64,000 nucleotides of DNA from contig WBVU01000019.1 in NCBI GenBank assembly GCA_009192285.1, positions 889,379 to 953,378 on the forward strand, given 5' to 3'. A program made the translations under genes and the position numbers. How positions within the stretch are numbered: position 1 is the first letter of the stretch; each line of letters opens with the position of its first letter. A model generated the notes under the pieces. The model was not told where the DNA came from and did no database searches. It saw only the letters and a list, made by a program, of their open reading frames with translations. Source of the DNA: Morchella semilibera. Taxonomy: Eukaryota; Ascomycota; Pezizomycetes; Pezizales; Morchellaceae. Shown here piece by piece: positions 16,974 through 41,742 of this stretch.

Positions 16974-19493
16974 TCAACTAAACGCCAGGTAAGACACATC
17001 GGCTGAATATAGACTTGTGTTTTGTCCAGCAGAAATATGCCATGACATCCCCGCCTCCGTTATATCGAAAGAATCTGTACTAAAACATGGAAACATGTAG
17101 TTACGCGACTCTAAATCCAAAGAGCTAAACCCCATAATAACTCGAGGCGGAGATGCAAAATCGCCGCCATCAAAATTCGTATACCCGTCATCGCGCAGTC
17201 GAGGTCCCACATTCCACGGGCGGACGTCCGTGGTACCAAAGCTGCCCTTGAAGACACCGGGCCTATCCCCGGGATAGGCAACCCACGTGAAACTAGCCGG
17301 ACAGATGTTGTCGATGTTTGTCAGAATATTAATCTTGAAACCAGTCCTAGTGACATCGGTCACGTATGTCTCTATCCCAAGCCGTACTGTGATATTCGCT
17401 CGCAGGTCACCCGGGTTTATAGGGGCGAAGTCGGATAACCAAACCACAACGACTGGTATCACATCATACGGACGGGGAAACATAACGTACACTTCCTCAC
17501 TCAGTCGACGGTTGTTTGAGGGGGTTTCGCCATCGCGGATTTTCCCAAATTGAAAATCCAGATCGTTGGCGCCGATTTCTAGCCAGTTGATACCTATATC
17601 CACCGACTTAAAACGAGAAAGTAAGGTGCCAACTACGATGCTGTCGTTGGTGATTACGAGATCCCCACATTTATTAGGCCAGTTTGGTGGTACGCTTGTT
17701 ATGGTAATTGGTAGATCCGGCGCCGATGAATACTTGCCTACTAATGGTATTGTAGTGTCTTCGGGGTATGAGAATACAAGTTTAGTTGCGTCCCAATTGA
17801 ACGGAATCTGCTTTCTGAAGTTTCCAACGACCGGATTTCGGCGCCCCCCGTGCCCCACAGTAGAAATATTATGTTCAGTATTCACCGCTTTTCCAACTGC
17901 TGTTGCTATAGATGTATTAGTGAGTAAGTTATCATACGTATCTATCAGAGCTCTTGGAGAAAACCTTTGCCTTTATCTTTGCCTTTATCTTTGCCTTGAT
18001 CACTACCCTCCGGTCCTTCCCCCTGCACTTCCCTCACCACTTTCCTGGTTTTAGGTTTTATGACTATAGGTACATACGTACCTACCAAAGCTCTTGGAGG
18101 AAAACTTTTGCCTCTATCTTTGCCTTGATCATTACCCTCCGGTCCTTCCCCTGCACTCCCCTCACCACTTTCCTGGTTTTAGGTTTTATGACTATAGATG
18201 TATTAGTGAGTAAGTTATACATACGTATCTACCAAAGCTCTGGGAGGAAAACCTTTGCCTTTATCTTTGCCTTTATCTTTGCATTTATCTTTGCCTTGAT
18301 CACTACCCTCCGGTCCTTCCTCCTGCACTTCCCTCACCACGTTATCCCTATCCCGAGGCTTATGTTCAGTATTCACCACTTTCCCAAATGTTGTTGCTAT
18401 AGATGTATTAGTGAGTAAGTTATACATACGTATCTATCAAAGATCTGGGAGGAAAACTTTTGCCTTTATCATTGCCTTGAACACTACCCCCCGGTACTTC
18501 CCCCTGCACTCCCCTCCCCACGTTACCGAAATCCAAAATCCTATAATTAGTTTTCACCGCTTTCCCAACTGTTGTTACTATAGATGTATTAGTGAGTAAG
18601 TCATACATACGTATCTTTCAAAGCTCTGGGAGGAAAACCTTTGACTTCATCTTTGCCTTGATCACTACCCTCCGGTCCTTCCTCCTGCACTTCCCTCACC
18701 ACGTTATCCCTATCCCGAGGCTTATGTTCAGTATTCACCGCTTTTCCAACTGTTGTTGCTATAGATGTATTAGTAAGTAAGTCATACATACGTATCTTTC
18801 AAAGCTCTGGGAGGAAAACCTTTGCCTTCATCATCACTACCCTCCGGTCCTTCCTCCTGCGCTTCCCTCACCACGTTATCCCTACCCCGAGGCTTATGTT
18901 CAGTATTCACCGCTTTCCCAACTGTTGTTGCTATAGATGTATTAGTGAGTAAGTTATACATACGTATCTATCAAAGCTCTGAGAGGAAAACCCTTGACTT
19001 CATCTTTGCCTTGATCACTACCCTCCGGCCCTTCCCCCTGCACTTCCCTCACCACGTTATCCCGAGGCTTTCCCCTTTCTAATTCCAATCTCTTCGTCTC
19101 ACCGATGCACTTCTTGAGAGAGGCTTTATGTTTCTTACGCTCTATCTCAAGCGCAGCATTAAATACGTCCCTCAACTGATAGAAGTCAGCGTCTCCTGAT
19201 CCCAGAAAAAACGACTCCCACCTAACTACATACACTTGCAACCAGCCGCTCAAACACCAACTCGGGCGCCATCGAGACATACTGAAGGCCGTTTAAAAAC
19301 TCTGGGGACAGAACCGTTAATCATGACCAGCGGTGCATTGCAAAGCTAGGAACGAATACCCACCTTGAAACTCAGAGACGAGCTGTTCTGCGGTCAGAAA
19401 AGAGTCTGTGGTAAGATACTTTGGAGGAATGTATAGTGGGCGGTTGGATAGGGGATCTATGGTGATTAACTGACTGGCTGGTACTGCATCCAT
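16974..19493 (-). CDS. H-type lectin protein with exon-repeat linker
   Basis: Ten candidate exons: 19493-19364, 19301-19234, 19175-18964, then repeat exons 18881-18792, 18709-18611, 18540-18430, 18347-18225, 18172-18078 and 18044-17938, then 17814-16974. The last exon encodes about 280 aa with two H-type lectin domains. One runs from EEVYVMFPRPYDVIP to FTWVAYP, with the RTGFKINI strand; the other runs from SPPRVIMGFSSLD to ADVSYLAFS. Such domains bind sugars, classically GalNAc. The N-terminal 135 aa are unknown; they include LRDVFNAALEIERKKHKASL, which may form a coiled coil. Repeat exons encode units around VREVQEEGPEGSDQGKD, charged and probably disordered. All repeat introns are phase 2. 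The two repeat exons nearest the lectin are 95 and 107 nt, not multiples of three. Omitting both gives a continuous frame of 557 aa, and every other junction keeps frame. No signal peptide is evident. Confidence 0.7.
17815..18964 (-). repeat. Tandem exon+intron cassette, seven units
   Basis: Unit length is 140-205 bp, commonly 181 bp. Each unit ends on the minus strand at GATAC|GTATGT or GGTAC|GTATGT, followed by an intron containing CTCACTAATACATCTATAG in most copies. Units 1-5 (highest coordinates) keep open exons of 212 (including unique sequence), 90, 99, 111 and 123 nt. Units 6 and 7 have lost a base each, and the intron between them is only 33 nt. Internal expansion of the triplet-based motif GGCAAAGATAAA explains the longer unit at 18.25-18.29 kb. 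Confidence 0.85.
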
Positions 19494-19554
19494 GGTCATT
19501 GTTTCCAGATGTTGGTGTAGGATGGGTGAAGGCAGGTCAAGAGTAGGGTGAAGG

Positions 19555-19575: not shown

Positions 19576-20221
19576 CCTGAATTCAGGCGGTCAGTATTAG
19601 GCGGCTGAGGTGCCAAGGAGTGGTTTGCCACCTAGGCGCGCGCGTCTCACGTCAGGCGTGGACTGGAGTGGGACGCAGTCGTGGGACTTCTTGTTCAGTA
19701 TCCCTTGAACGGATGAAATCGTCAAATTCCCATGCATGGACAGTGCATGCACTAAGTTGGGTATATTCGTTGCTGATAAAAAACCATAGAGCAAATCAAA
19801 GATAGCTGTTAGCTGCCTGCTAATATTAGAGACTTTGCGCAAATGGAGCAGCTCTATACCTCGATTATCTGATTGGCAGGCTATGGGATCGGCGTCAACC
19901 ATGCCACCCGCGAAAAGTCTCAAAGAGGCAAGCTACGCCAAATTTGGCAATTTCATGTCTAAGGGATTAACCCCTACTCGTGTACGTGAACCAATCTATA
20001 TGTTTCGAGGAAGTAGAGTTGTTTCTAACCCAATACTAGATGACTTCCCATAGTCGTTGATCTAGATCTGGGTGTAATCAGCCTACTCGCAAATTCATGA
20101 CGTTTCCGAACACGGCCACCATTACAATATGCCATGCAATTAAGATGGCAGGGTTTTTCTGTGTATCCAATAACAGTGAAGTCCTAAAACGCTACGAAAC
20201 TACGAGTAGTACCACGGTGTC

Positions 20222-20290
20222 AAGGGTAAGTGAGTAGAACGTAGCAACGCAAACGTACACCGCACTGCCGCGTTCTACTCACTTACCCTT
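20222..20290. repeat. Perfect 20-bp inverted repeat
   Basis: Arms AAGGGTAAGTGAGTAGAACG and its exact reverse complement are separated by 29 bp. No gene is attached. It may be a short MITE or a deletion relic of a longer one. Confidence 0.85.
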
Positions 20291-22180
20291 CCCACCGGAG
20301 TATAGCTTAGGAGCCTGTGTAAGACAGTCTTTTATCCCGTGGACTGTCGAGTCAAATAGTAGTACATTTTCATTAGTCATTTAAAATCTCTGGCCCTATA
20401 AACATATATACCATGTGCTACAGTATATGATGTAGATACATGTGGTTTAACTGCATGTGTAGGCAAAAGTTCCAGGAAAATCCGAGAGGCGGCTGGAGGT
20501 GGGGAATCTCCCAAGATTATATCATTACATGTATGTTATATAAACCATGCATGGGGCCCATGGGGTCTTATAATAAGTTGTCATTCAGACTACCTTCTAC
20601 AGACCTGGATACATTCTAACCTGTCTGAATACATGTACACATACGGCCAGACCAACGGCCACGGGAAATCATACAAGCGAAATATGTCTATATATAAACG
20701 TAAATGCATGTATGTATCAGTCATTCTGGTATCGAAGACCTTGCCGTTGGCGTGTACGTTGTCGTGGCCGGTTGTAGGAGGAGTTTGCCGCTGCCTGGGC
20801 GGGTACGTACTAGAAGAGGTAGATAACAGCATGATATATGAACGTAGCCTGGGGTTGAACTAGATTGATTAGTTAAGAAGTGTAGGCGGGGGTCTTGCAA
20901 TGACATACTATTAGTAACCATTTCTGCTGGATGGATTTTATGGGTACCGTCCATCAAATTCCCGCAATCCATGTACCATGGCTATTATATGTACTGATTC
21001 TCTGTTGAAAGAATTAGGAAATTGACGGCTCGGTCCTAGCTGTCACGGTAGCAGAAATCGTTTTTTCATTTCTTTCCTCTAGTTATCTCTACTTCCCCCT
21101 TACCCATTATAACTATTCAACCGACCAATCAATTCTATTTACGAATTAGCAACAGTACGCGTGATCATGATATGATGACCATGAAGTATCAACCAGTCCA
21201 CAACAATTAACTGCTGGAACTATGTGCGAGCCTTAGAGCAATACTTGTGCGGGGCCTGGACCACGATTATTATATCACTACCACCATCACTATCACTGTC
21301 TCTCCTGCCAAGCACTACTATTATAAAAGGGCTACTATAAAAGGGCTACTAAACCCCCTCCTATAGTTATAAAGTATTTGGTCATGCCAAGACTTAATTG
21401 TCCGAGTGAGCACTGGTGTCCCACCCCATGATAATTCGCGGTACAGAAAAAGGATACCCCCAGGTAAGTTTCGACGGGCCCAGAAAAGTGCCGTGCCGCT
21501 GTCCCAGAGCAAGTCGTAGAGGCCAGTCATAACATCATCATGACCATGAAAAGAAGGAACTGTCAGGCGCGCGCGCTCACATTCATATATATATCCATAC
21601 TAGCCGTATGAGAAAACATGACAGGCTATATAAGATGTAGGTCTAGATGCGGGGGCTAGAGTATTCCTTGGGGCCAAATCCGCAGCCTGGACCGTCCACG
21701 CACTAGGTTAGGTATATATAATCGCTACTCCTAATAGTTGATAGTAACCATATATAGGGCTAATTAGAAATAGCTGTTAGGTGCTTGCTAAGTATTAGCT
21801 CGAAAGGGTAAGCCGCGAGTCTGAGGGCCTCATCCGTCCTTGCGAGGGATTCGATAATACTAGATCATCCTGTGAAAAGCCGTCTCATGGGACGTCGTCT
21901 ACTTGGTAAATAAAGATAAATAATTCTATGAAAGACTCAGTTTTTTTGAGGGGTGTGGTTAACCATATGTGCGGGGGAACTTGGAAACAGTCAACCCCGA
22001 TCGCGAGTACTACAACATTTAAACCACAATACGGAAAAAAAAGAAGGGTGAAATAAATTAAATCCCATTATCCCAATATAACAAAACTAGCCACAAAATC
22101 TACAACACCGAGCAGCCAACCCAGGATCTACAAATCCTTTTCTAGCACCACCTGTTATAATTAACAATGTACTCGTCCTT

Positions 22181-30700: not shown

Positions 30701-31367
30701 GAGTAGGTGTATTTAACTGGTGTTTTTTTTATTCTTGTAGATAAAAATGTTTGGAGTTTTCTTTTTCCTTTACTGGCGGGGCTTTTGGGGGGCGGGGGGG
30801 GCGTATTCGTCTTTGTTTGCTTCTTTAATGTCCTGTTAGGGTTGACTCTGTATCTAGGAAATACATATCCATGTAGAGTTTAGGTTTAGGGTACGGTTTT
30901 GCAATTGATGAGATTCAGGTCGATTCGTTCTTATTTACTCTGCTGTGGGTTAGGGTTCTGGCCTGTTGCTTTCCATCCAACGTACGGGTGATGGGACATG
31001 ACGCGACTTGACGGGTAGCAGACGGGCCTGCAGGACTCTTGATTTCGCCTATCGGATAAGTGCTAAATGGTCTGCTGTGCTGTGTGTTTAATCTTTCACT
31101 TCAGTACTATAAGTGCACGCATATATATACCACGCACTCGAGTTCTATATGTAACTATTCCTATTTCCATAGCCACCCAGCGCAGCTAGATATATAGATC
31201 CCAAGGGTCGCTGAGATGATGACAAGAAGATACCACTTAATCCCACGCGGACTTCAACCCTACCATCCGTGGTGCCAGAAACTTATGTAGGTATGCATGC
31301 ACCCGCGAATATGAACAAAATCCCCGGTCAAAGAAATAACGGTGACGGGAAAAAAAAGAAAGATAAT

Positions 31368-31439
31368 TGCTCCAGTAGAGATTTGAACTCCAGATCTTCG
31401 CATTACAAGTGCGACGCCTTACCCCTTGGCCACAAGAGC
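31368..31439 (-). tRNA. tRNA-Thr (UGU)
   Basis: 72 nt on the minus strand, no intron. The acceptor GCTCTTG pairs with CTGGAGC apart from one mismatch. The D arm is GCC/GGC, the anticodon stem TCGCA/TGCGA encloses loop CTTGTAA (anticodon TGT at 31407-31405), and the T arm is TGGAG TTCAAAT CTCTA. A-box TGGCCAAGG and B-box GTTCAAATC are present. The T-stem and acceptor mismatches leave a slight chance that it is a pseudogene. Confidence 0.85.
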
Positions 31440-31759
31440 ATGCAGGTGACAACGGCGTCCTCGCGGCTGTAACAAGGGCTAGCCCGGGAACGGAATAGCT
31501 GTGTCGGTCAAGCAAGACGACGTCTTGAAAAAACGAATCTCTCAACGAGCACCGTTTTCAAACTCGCTGCGGGGTTGGAGACGGGATGAATACATGTAGT
31601 TACCCCCCTAACATGGCCGGTATAAATAACATGCCGTCTCCTACCCCCCGGATTAATTCTTAATCCTCCCGCAGCTCATGTTCACCGGTATAGACTAAAC
31701 TTATAAGCTATATTATAAAACTAACCACCCACAGCTTAATCACAGCTTATCACCCACGT

Positions 31760-39904: not shown

Positions 39905-41742
39905 ATGTTGGAAACAAAGTTCTCATTCCTGAAGGTTGACGGCGAGAAGGTTGTTGATGAGAGCGGTGAGAATGTGATATTGAAGGGTGCAGGCTTGGGG
40001 GGGTGGATGAAGTATGTCGTTCTTTCCTTCTCCGCTACTTAGATACTATTCTAGTTGTCCAAAGCTACTGTACCTAGCTCTGCCATGCCCCACCAGGCCC
40101 CCAAAGACCAAGCTCAGCTGACAATGTGCTCTTCACAGCATGGAGAACTTCATCACTGGATACCCCGGACACGAGCACCAACATCGAGCAGCAATGCTAG
40201 CCGTCCTCGGCCCCGAAAAGTACGAATTCTTTTTCGATCAATTCCTCACGCACTTCTTCAATGAAGCTGATGCCGCCTTCTTCGCCTCACTAGGCCTCAA
40301 CTGCCTCCGAATCCCATTCAACTATCACCACTTTGAGGACGACATGGACCCTCGCGTACTCAAGACCTCCGGGTTCAAGCACCTCGACCGCGTCATAGAT
40401 CTCTGTGAAAAGCATGGGATCTGGACAATCCTAGACCTGCATGCGGTCCCTGGGGGGCAGAATCCGGATTGGTAGGCGTCTCCTACTTGGATATCTTGGT
40501 GGGTTGGTTACTGGGTGCTAATTTGGGGGGTATATAACTTGCAGGCACTCAGATAACCCGACGAATGCAGCACTCTTCTGGGAATTTAAAGATTTTCAGG
40601 ACAGGGTAGTATGGCTGTGGGAACAGTTGCAGAGCGCTATAAGGACCGCAAGTGTATTGCTGGGTATAATCCTTTGAATGAGCCTGCGGATCCCCGTATG
40701 TCTCCTCAACCCCTTCCCTCAAGGTTGTGCTTCTCTAATGTATAAGGCAGAACACGTACGGCTCCCAAAGTACTATGAACGTATCGAGAAGGCGATCCGC
40801 AAGGTCGACCCGAACCATATACTTTGGCTCGATGGAAACACCTTTGCGATGGATTTCAAGGCGTTTGACAATGTCCTTCCTAACTCCGTGTACGCTATCC
40901 ACGACTACTCTGTAAGCCCCCCAGTCCATGCTTCATAGACCCTTCACCCGCAGGCCCACCATGAGGTCCCTTGCAAAGGTTTCACTGCTTGAAGTCTCGC
41001 TAATCCCTCTCCAGATGATGGGCTTCCCCGTCGGTACTCCATACACCTCTACCCCCGAACAAGATAGCAAACTAGAGTCACAGCTCCTCCGAAAAACAGA
41101 TTTCATGAGGGCCCACCATGTCCCCATCTGGAATGGTGAATTCGGGCCTGTCTATGCTCCGTCTTCCGATCCAAACTCAGATATAGTCAATTCGCAGCGT
41201 TACAATCTCCTCGGTGCTCAGCTGCGAATCTATGAGAAATACAATATCGGCTGGAGCATTTGGACGTACAAGGATATTGGTATGCAGGGGATGGTGTATG
41301 CGGACCCAGAGGGGCCGTGGATGAAGACACTACAGCCGTTTATCGACAAAAAGAAGAGAGTTCAGGCAGATATGTGGGGATATTGGCCGTCAGCAGAGAT
41401 TGATGCCATCTTTGACGTTAGTCTTCTTCTTTTATCCGCCTCTTTTGGTGCTATTGTGAGGGCGTTACTGAATATAAAGAGCAGCCCTTGACAGCATGGA
41501 TCACGAAGAACTCCCCCGAGGCGGGGCTGAAGTACCCTGATTCTTGGGACGTAAGGCGGCATCTATCGAGGCTGGTAAAGGAAACCTTTCTAAGTGAGAC
41601 GCTATCAGCAGAGTTTGCTAGATATTTTGAGGGCATGTCGATGGAGGAGCTGGGGGAGATGGCAAGGAGCTTTGCGTTTGAGAAGGTGGTACAGAGGGAC
41701 GGGCTAAACCGAATCCTGAGAGAACATGCAGCGTTGGTGTAA
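39905..41742 (+). CDS. Glycoside hydrolase family 5 (glucanase-type)
   Basis: Six exons: 39905-40011, 40139-40471, 40545-40695, 40751-40911, 41015-41416 and 41485-41742; expected product 470 aa. GH5 landmarks appear in order: LKGAGLGGWM at the start; LRIPFNY with the conserved Arg; DLHAVPGGQN; NPLNEP with the acid/base Glu; HDYS with the conserved His; WNGEFGP with the nucleophile Glu; and GWSIWTYKD with the substrate-stacking Trp. There is no signal peptide, so the enzyme is probably intracellular, unlike the secreted exo-1,3-glucanases. The extra C-terminal 130 residues, ending in a helical segment, fit fungal cytosolic GH5 proteins; the exact glucan or glucolipid substrate is open. In exon 3, near 40,627-40,629, one base is missing (single G after CAGTT where two are expected), shifting the frame just before the NEP motif. 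The rest is well conserved, so an assembly indel is likely. Confidence 0.88.

Follow-up and report, generated by a model that had tools for sequence, protein, structure and literature searches.

Introduction

H-type lectins form a class of sugar-binding proteins with a beta-sandwich fold. Genes built from iterated exon-intron units are known from the flagelliform spider silk gene, whose units homogenise together; these units are far larger and encode an animal structural protein. The closest described system is that of Tetrahymena: thousands of its LRR genes hold tandem exons of exactly 90 bp with introns in phase 2, unequal crossing-over being proposed as their source and RNA-Seq evidence being named in a figure legend (PMC6564038). 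Introns can also arise by intronization, in which a coding stretch with a premature stop is rescuable by splicing it out (excerpts of PMC2586383 and PMC2740785), and a Cryptococcus survey found it to be rare, with five instances in 28,256 introns, and met with no de-intronization at all (PMC2740785). Coding repeats in variable number outside the sugar-binding domain are described for the prawn Rlec C-type lectins (PMC7536079, in part), and four H-type lectins are predicted in the nematode-trapping fungus A. oligospora (PMC3924618, in part). In the top-ranked titles and abstracts of the open-licence literature, we found no fungal lectin with an exon-intron array of this kind.

Here we describe such an array in a stretch of 64,000 nt of Morchella semilibera DNA (assembly GCA_009192285.1, contig WBVU01000019.1, positions 889,379 to 953,378 of the forward strand), referred to below as the window. 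An earlier note on this DNA had described seven consecutive units, each with a short exon and a complete phase-2 intron, that feed an H-type lectin. It was right in outline, but claimed too much as to how many introns work and how the units connect to the lectin. A repeat unit with its own intron, which it had called rare, is moreover not unprecedented, as judged from what the cited part of the Tetrahymena report describes (PMC6564038).

Like the Tetrahymena LRR genes, the lectin array would consist of tandem intragenic units of one short exon and one predicted intron in phase 2; unlike them, it is confined to one gene and has exon parts of 90-123 nt (in units U1-U4) in place of uniform 90-bp exons in thousands of genes, and two of its units have no working intron (PMC6564038, in the part drawn on). 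The arithmetic of exon plus phase-2 intron was found in U1-U4 and in the intron of U5, and was absent from U6-U7, splicing being predicted in every case; the exon parts (90, 99, 111 and 123 nt) are not uniformly 90 bp, and the three unit ORFs compared with Pfam had no match that would point to an LRR product. Intronization is expected to act on 3n pieces (PMC2586383, in part), whereas the pieces of the lectin array are 3n+1, and the array, in which splicing is predicted, would hold both states side by side (compare the excerpts of PMC2586383 and PMC2740785). The prawn repeats differ in that they measure 30/33 bp, lie all in exon 2 and belong to another lectin family, and in that their copy-number variation has been shown (PMC7536079, in part).

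Results

An H-type lectin gene with plausible upstream exons

The lectin gene proposed before proved to be real: a 332-codon ORF matches PF09458 in two stretches (E 3.6e-22; 78.7 bits against a cut-off of 24, the bits being those of the 274-codon 3' part of the ORF). The first Met of this ORF is found only at residue 164 of 332, and the ORF must therefore join something upstream. Exons 1 and 2 are plausible and are joined to exon 3 through ordinary introns (Table 1); with introns 1 and 2 removed, the spliced translation of exons 1-3 is stop-free from MTMDAVPASQ... to ...FPLRALID. Structure prediction of the lectin with a single-sequence model gave a mean pLDDT of 28.1, which is too low to be of use, and its sole PDB match, 3wmp, was weak (E 0.18). 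Within the window, blastn detected no lectin paralogue outside the gene at E 1e-3, and tblastn returned four weak matches only (E 1.8-5.3). Neither the lectin nor the exact core pattern of the array had relatives in viral contigs, where a fungal gene is unexpected, and none of the 27 pattern-matching stretches in prokaryote genomes, where it is equally unexpected, was confirmed.

Table 1. Parts of the lectin gene and of its tandem array (positions within the window)
Feature	Position	Strand	Remarks
Exon 1, lectin gene	19364..19499	-	starts ATG, MTMDAVPASQ...VSEFQ; spliced translation
Intron 1, lectin gene	19302..19363	-	62 nt, GTGGGT..TTAAC..CCCCAG; spliced translation
Exon 2, lectin gene	19234..19301	-	spliced translation
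Intron 2, lectin gene	19176..19233	-	58 nt, GTATGT..CTGAC..ATCAG; spliced translation and motif scan
Exon 3, lectin gene	18964..19175	-	3' part (from ~19063) forms copy one of the repeated coding sequence
U1 intron-like part	18882..18963	-	82 nt in earlier model; acceptor never best
U1 exon part	18792..18881	-	90 nt, open in exon-3 frame
U2 intron-like part	18710..18791	-	82 nt; acceptor never best
U2 exon part	18611..18709	-	99 nt, open in exon-3 frame
U3 intron-like part	18541..18610	-	70 nt, own ACTAAT and TATAG; frame-compatible acceptor best in 6/7 scorings
U3 exon part	18430..18540	-	111 nt, open; most divergent among U1-U4
U4 intron-like part	18348..18429	-	82 nt; acceptor never best
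U4 exon part	18225..18347	-	123 nt, open; contains nested 12-nt repeats
U5 intron-like part	18173..18224	-	52 nt, acceptor ..CCTAAAACCAG, frame-compatible, best in 6/7 scorings
U5 exon part	18078..18172	-	95 nt; G run shorter by one base than that of U6, frame broken
U6 intron remnant	18045..18077	-	33 nt, branch motif lost; open if unspliced
U6 exon part	17938..18044	-	107 nt; near end one base shorter than other units, frame broken
U7 partial unit	17864..17937	-	donor lost (GTATGA); in frame into lectin ORF
332-codon ORF with two H-type lectin stretches	16974..17972 (17972-16977 in other count)	-	ORF list and profile match

A tandem array between exon 3 and the lectin ORF

The array lies on the minus strand between exon 3 and the lectin ORF, and was delimited by TRF at 18277-19063 (period 181, 4.4 copies, 85% matches, score 1210). 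Its repetition is far beyond chance. A 32-nt core pattern (at most 3 mismatches) has five matches in the window versus none in 100 shuffles, and a donor-centred repeat family of 36 nt (D5) is present in seven copies. Measured from donor to donor, the units are 172, 181, 181, 205, 147 and 140 nt long and are followed by a partial seventh. Six donors read GTATGT on the minus strand (18963, 18791, 18610, 18429, 18224 and 18077), so the conservation of this motif holds for six units, and the seventh reads GTATGA (17937).

Over aligned bases, identity among U1, U2 and U4 amounts to 95-97% (166/172, 172/181 and 165/172), and U3 is more divergent (153/181 relative to U2). U5 and U6 resemble each other most (119/128) and have a 3' intron sequence of their own that is common to both, while U7 shares 72 of 74 aligned bases with U1 and is one base shorter. 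Nested tandem repeats of 12 nt occur within U4 (18253-18301, 4.1 copies) and U6 (17965-18001, 3.1 copies), so that the length of the array can change at two scales. None of the three unit ORFs tested had a Pfam match.

Frame arithmetic holds in the first units and fails in the last

The four junctions named in the earlier note are in keeping with frame-preserving splicing, as the candidate introns of U1-U4 (82, 82, 70 and 82 nt) are each 3n+1 and in phase 2, and the exon parts that follow (90, 99, 111 and 123 nt) remain open when read on from exons 1-3. U5 has a candidate intron of 52 nt that is also 3n+1 and that had not been listed before. Beyond this point the units are damaged: the intron part of U6 measures 33 nt versus 52 in U5, the 19 missing nucleotides including the branch motif, and U7 lacks one base in its donor. 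Seven units are thus present, but a complete phase-2 intron in each of them is not, as the core is lost from U6 and the donor from U7. Likewise, exon lengths in multiples of three are kept by U1-U4 and not by U5 (95 nt) or U6 (107 nt), and acceptors at equivalent places are seen in U1, U2 and U4, whereas that of U3 lies 12 nt upstream and that of U5 in unrelated sequence. What stands in the way of a clean open chain is a length difference of one base in each of U5 and U6, which may be an assembly error.

These results bear on the model of the earlier note, that of a working coding minisatellite with an intron of its own in each unit and with a variable-length linker before the lectin domains as its product, which we regard as decidedly unlikely. 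As an in-frame coding repeat, the array is open in five exon copies (the copy at the end of exon 3, E3, and U1-U4) separated by candidate 3n+1 introns, and the six GTATGT donors and the intact lectin ORF also speak for such a model; U5 and U6 are broken in frame, however, and U5-U7 as a whole are broken or without introns.

Splice signals are credible in U3 and U5

In each of U1-U5 a strong ACTAAT is found 21 nt from the donor and is followed 11 nt further on by TATAG. Use of this TATAG as acceptor, for an intron of 33 nt, would lead to a stop after 10 codons (U1-U4) or 4 codons (U5), and use of the next AG (42 nt), present in U1-U3 only, to a stop after 7 codons. The acceptor of the 82-nt introns lies 60 nt from ACTAAT, the only consensus motif, beyond three or four intervening AGs, and its alternative branch site is a weaker CTGAA.

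As a reference we used seven introns placed by hand according to frame continuity and splice motifs (GH5 A-C, lactonase 1-2 and lectin 1-2); GH5 C was judged by eye, a fourth GH5 intron whose motif was not found was dropped, and further GH5 and bestrophin introns were left out. Their lengths span 49-127 nt; the branch motif is separated from the donor by 39-109 nt (by subtraction) and from the AG by 9-23 nt, one nearer AG being skipped in GH5 intron C. Since the reference introns are longer and their branch motif is farther from the donor, an intron of 33 or 42 nt would be unusually small, with its motif unusually near the donor. The distance of 60 nt in the 82-nt introns, set against the 9-23 nt of the reference, argues at the same time against a working minisatellite.

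Acceptors were then compared in seven variants of a splice scoring whose weights follow the general splice-site consensus and were not fitted. The 82-nt acceptors of U1, U2 and U4 (18963/18882, 18791/18710 and 18429/18348) came out best in none of the seven, which again counts against the working minisatellite, while those of U3 (70 nt; once by a tie) and U5 (52 nt) each came first in six. The U3 acceptor was not best when the distance from branch point to AG was limited to 9-30 nt; when the length penalty was removed, the U5 acceptor was not best and that of U3 only tied. In simulations done after the fact, a frame-compatible best acceptor emerged in a fraction of 0.046 (0.027 with an open exon) when U2 was given random bases at the 28 sites at which U3 differs, and of 0.125 when U5 was given a random 19-nt insert; over the seven scorings the simulated fraction ranged from 0.000 to 0.246 (U2-based) and from 0.011 to 0.202 (U3-based). 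The predicted signals thereby lend modest, after-the-fact support to splicing of U3 and U5, and none to splicing of U1, U2 and U4. Scanning the whole window for intron lengths between consensus motifs revealed a weak excess (10 versus 3.2 in the 40-49 nt bin, and 6 versus 2.6 in the 30-39 nt bin, in which the five array cores are included); the scan was set aside as evidence.

The intron-like stretch is also open in the frame of the next exon

In U1-U6 the intron stretch is stop-free in the frame of the exon that follows, so that the canonical unit minus one base is a continuous coding repeat of 180 nt. With its 19 nt missing, U6 is entered from U5 in one ORF, and in U7 the repeat tail, the former intron and the lectin ORF follow each other without interruption, the frame being open for 55 codons before IPFNWD, the start of the part counted as lectin. 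By chance, 159-nt noncoding stretches are open in a fraction of 0.080; with a further factor of 1/3 for frame agreement, the chance for U7 is ~0.08 x 1/3. Noncoding pieces of 81 nt are open by chance in a fraction of 0.27 and the unit copies are not independent of each other, and hence the evidence for a dual nature of the stretch is not strong.

An array that was never spliced would account for several of these features, although we consider it unlikely. It would consist of an in-frame coding repeat of 180 nt in which an extra base in one unit was spread by unequal exchange; the gene would be truncated just after exon 3 (DTYV, then a stop) and the lectin exon would be a relic. The open intron stretch in U1-U6, the unit length of 181 as 180+1 and the reading of U7, which lacks the extra base, straight into the lectin ORF are as expected for such a repeat. 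The frequency with which 81 nt are open by chance, in copies that are not independent, weakens the first of these points, and the frame-compatible acceptors that were best in six of seven scorings in U3 and U5, together with the intact lectin ORF, are at odds with an unspliced array.

Taken at face value, the reading frames suggest that one and the same sequence may be an intron in some copies and an exon in others, and this duality is the most interesting side of the array. That the stretch is a spliced intron in U1-U5 and a translated exon in U6 and U7, and so an intron birth or death in the act, strikes us as rather unlikely. We propose just as tentatively that the array could be a natural replicate series of intronization, with two ways of keeping the frame, as 3n+1 bases would be either spliced out or lost from the DNA. 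If so, a single gene would allow intronization to be followed in copies that lie next to each other.

Routes from exon 3 to the lectin ORF

Paths from exon 3 to the lectin ORF were searched with GT-AG introns, in one run with strong donors only and introns of up to 160 nt. An open chain to the lectin appears possible on paper, and no clean one was found. The open path with a score of 31.8, from the run with strong donors, takes the four junctions named before and the 52-nt intron of U5; what remains of U5 is read in a shifted frame, and the path then steps from 18085 to 17971, with GTAGGT as donor and an acceptor that ranks 13th for that donor (score -3.8). The six best paths from the array's own donors (scores 28.7-30.2) all start with the same four junctions, and each ends with at least one poor site: the AAAG acceptor at 18168, an acceptor in the exon of U5 (18114 or 18082), the GTATGA donor, or 17808/17815, which lack a branch motif. 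Hence the claim that the units feed the lectin exon agrees with an open path through the four junctions, as would the working minisatellite, but falters at the poor last step from 18085 to 17971. The top path overall (48.6) was discarded: it strings together weak donors that lie within exons, including one that splits exon 3, and its score is an artefact of the reward given to every additional intron.

Alternatively, exon 3 could be spliced directly to the lectin exon across one long intron, or with the array skipped, which would account for the missing constraint on the units (see below). A single intron of 1149 nt from 18963 to 17815 is formally open, but it scores -3.1 compared with ~30 for the unit-wise paths and greatly exceeds the seven placed introns in length (49-127 nt). 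The acceptor at 17815, at which the earlier note had let its range start, has no usable branch site (best -1.8), the branch motif being absent nearby. We therefore hold a single long intron to be very improbable.

Little constraint on the encoded units

Among the ten pairs formed by E3 and the exon parts of U1-U4, there are 0-2 synonymous versus 2-12 nonsynonymous differences, and six of the ten have no synonymous difference; U2 and U3 differ at 12 nonsynonymous and no synonymous positions. For the four pairs that involve E3, each with two synonymous differences, dN/dS is 0.39, 0.67, 0.68 and 1.68. In these small numbers there is no clear sign of purifying selection on the units, and the weak constraint on the amino acids is a further argument against a working minisatellite.

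Codon scores in the exon frame range from -0.02 to -0.21. For comparison, noncoding pieces score -0.52, the training genes 0.25 and the lectin exon, itself one of the training sequences, 0.01. Caution is called for, as the antisense strand scores higher than the sense strand in four of the five copies (E3 and U1-U4) and ties in U3. Two antisense ORFs lie over the array on the plus strand (17554-18054, 166 codons; 17924-18418, 164 codons) and are taken as shadows of the purine-rich strand.

A tandem exon-intron duplication and its proposed partial decay

Unequal crossing-over would have amplified a short piece at the passage from exon 3 to the lectin exon, which comprises the end of exon 3, the intron-like stretch and the beginning of the coding part that follows, leaving exon 3's own copy and seven further copies. 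From exon 3 to U5, the protein would continue only if a 3n+1 piece were spliced from each unit, most simply from GTATGT, for which the predicted signals are credible in U3 and U5 and doubtful in U1, U2 and U4. According to the frame arithmetic, length changes (19 nt in U6, 1 nt in U7) would have destroyed the intron of the last two units such that the ribosome reads through, and this read-through may have been selected for. The one-base length differences in U5 and U6 would still break the exon frame. The lack of de-intronization in the Cryptococcus survey (PMC2740785) speaks against this reading.

The signals favour frame-keeping splicing in two units only, U3 and U5, and damage is seen in the last copies. 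With confidence that stands about midway, we read the array as most likely a tandem duplication of exon and intron that is recent, under loose constraint and partly decaying (or as one marred by assembly errors), and not as a maintained linker of variable length. If the array is only a decaying repeat, it would be ordinary. If its units are spliced, each gain or loss of a unit would be the gain or loss of an exon with its own intron, in a fungal lectin that would offer a compact parallel to Tetrahymena.

Other features of the window

Upstream of the lectin gene, a hairpin at 20210-20302 has two arms of 37 nt that are 84% complementary and 19 nt apart, and looks like a small inverted-repeat element. 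The gene at 39905-41491 on the plus strand, which contributed to the intron reference, encodes a GH5-type glucanase (cellulase) and has at least three short introns. Other genes in the window code for a lactonase-type propeller, a bestrophin and an MFS transporter. With its short introns and this gene content, the window has the look of fungal, ascomycete-type DNA. A tRNA-Thr (anticodon TGT) at 31367-31440 on the minus strand is the sole RNA gene that the Rfam and ARAGORN scans detected in the window.
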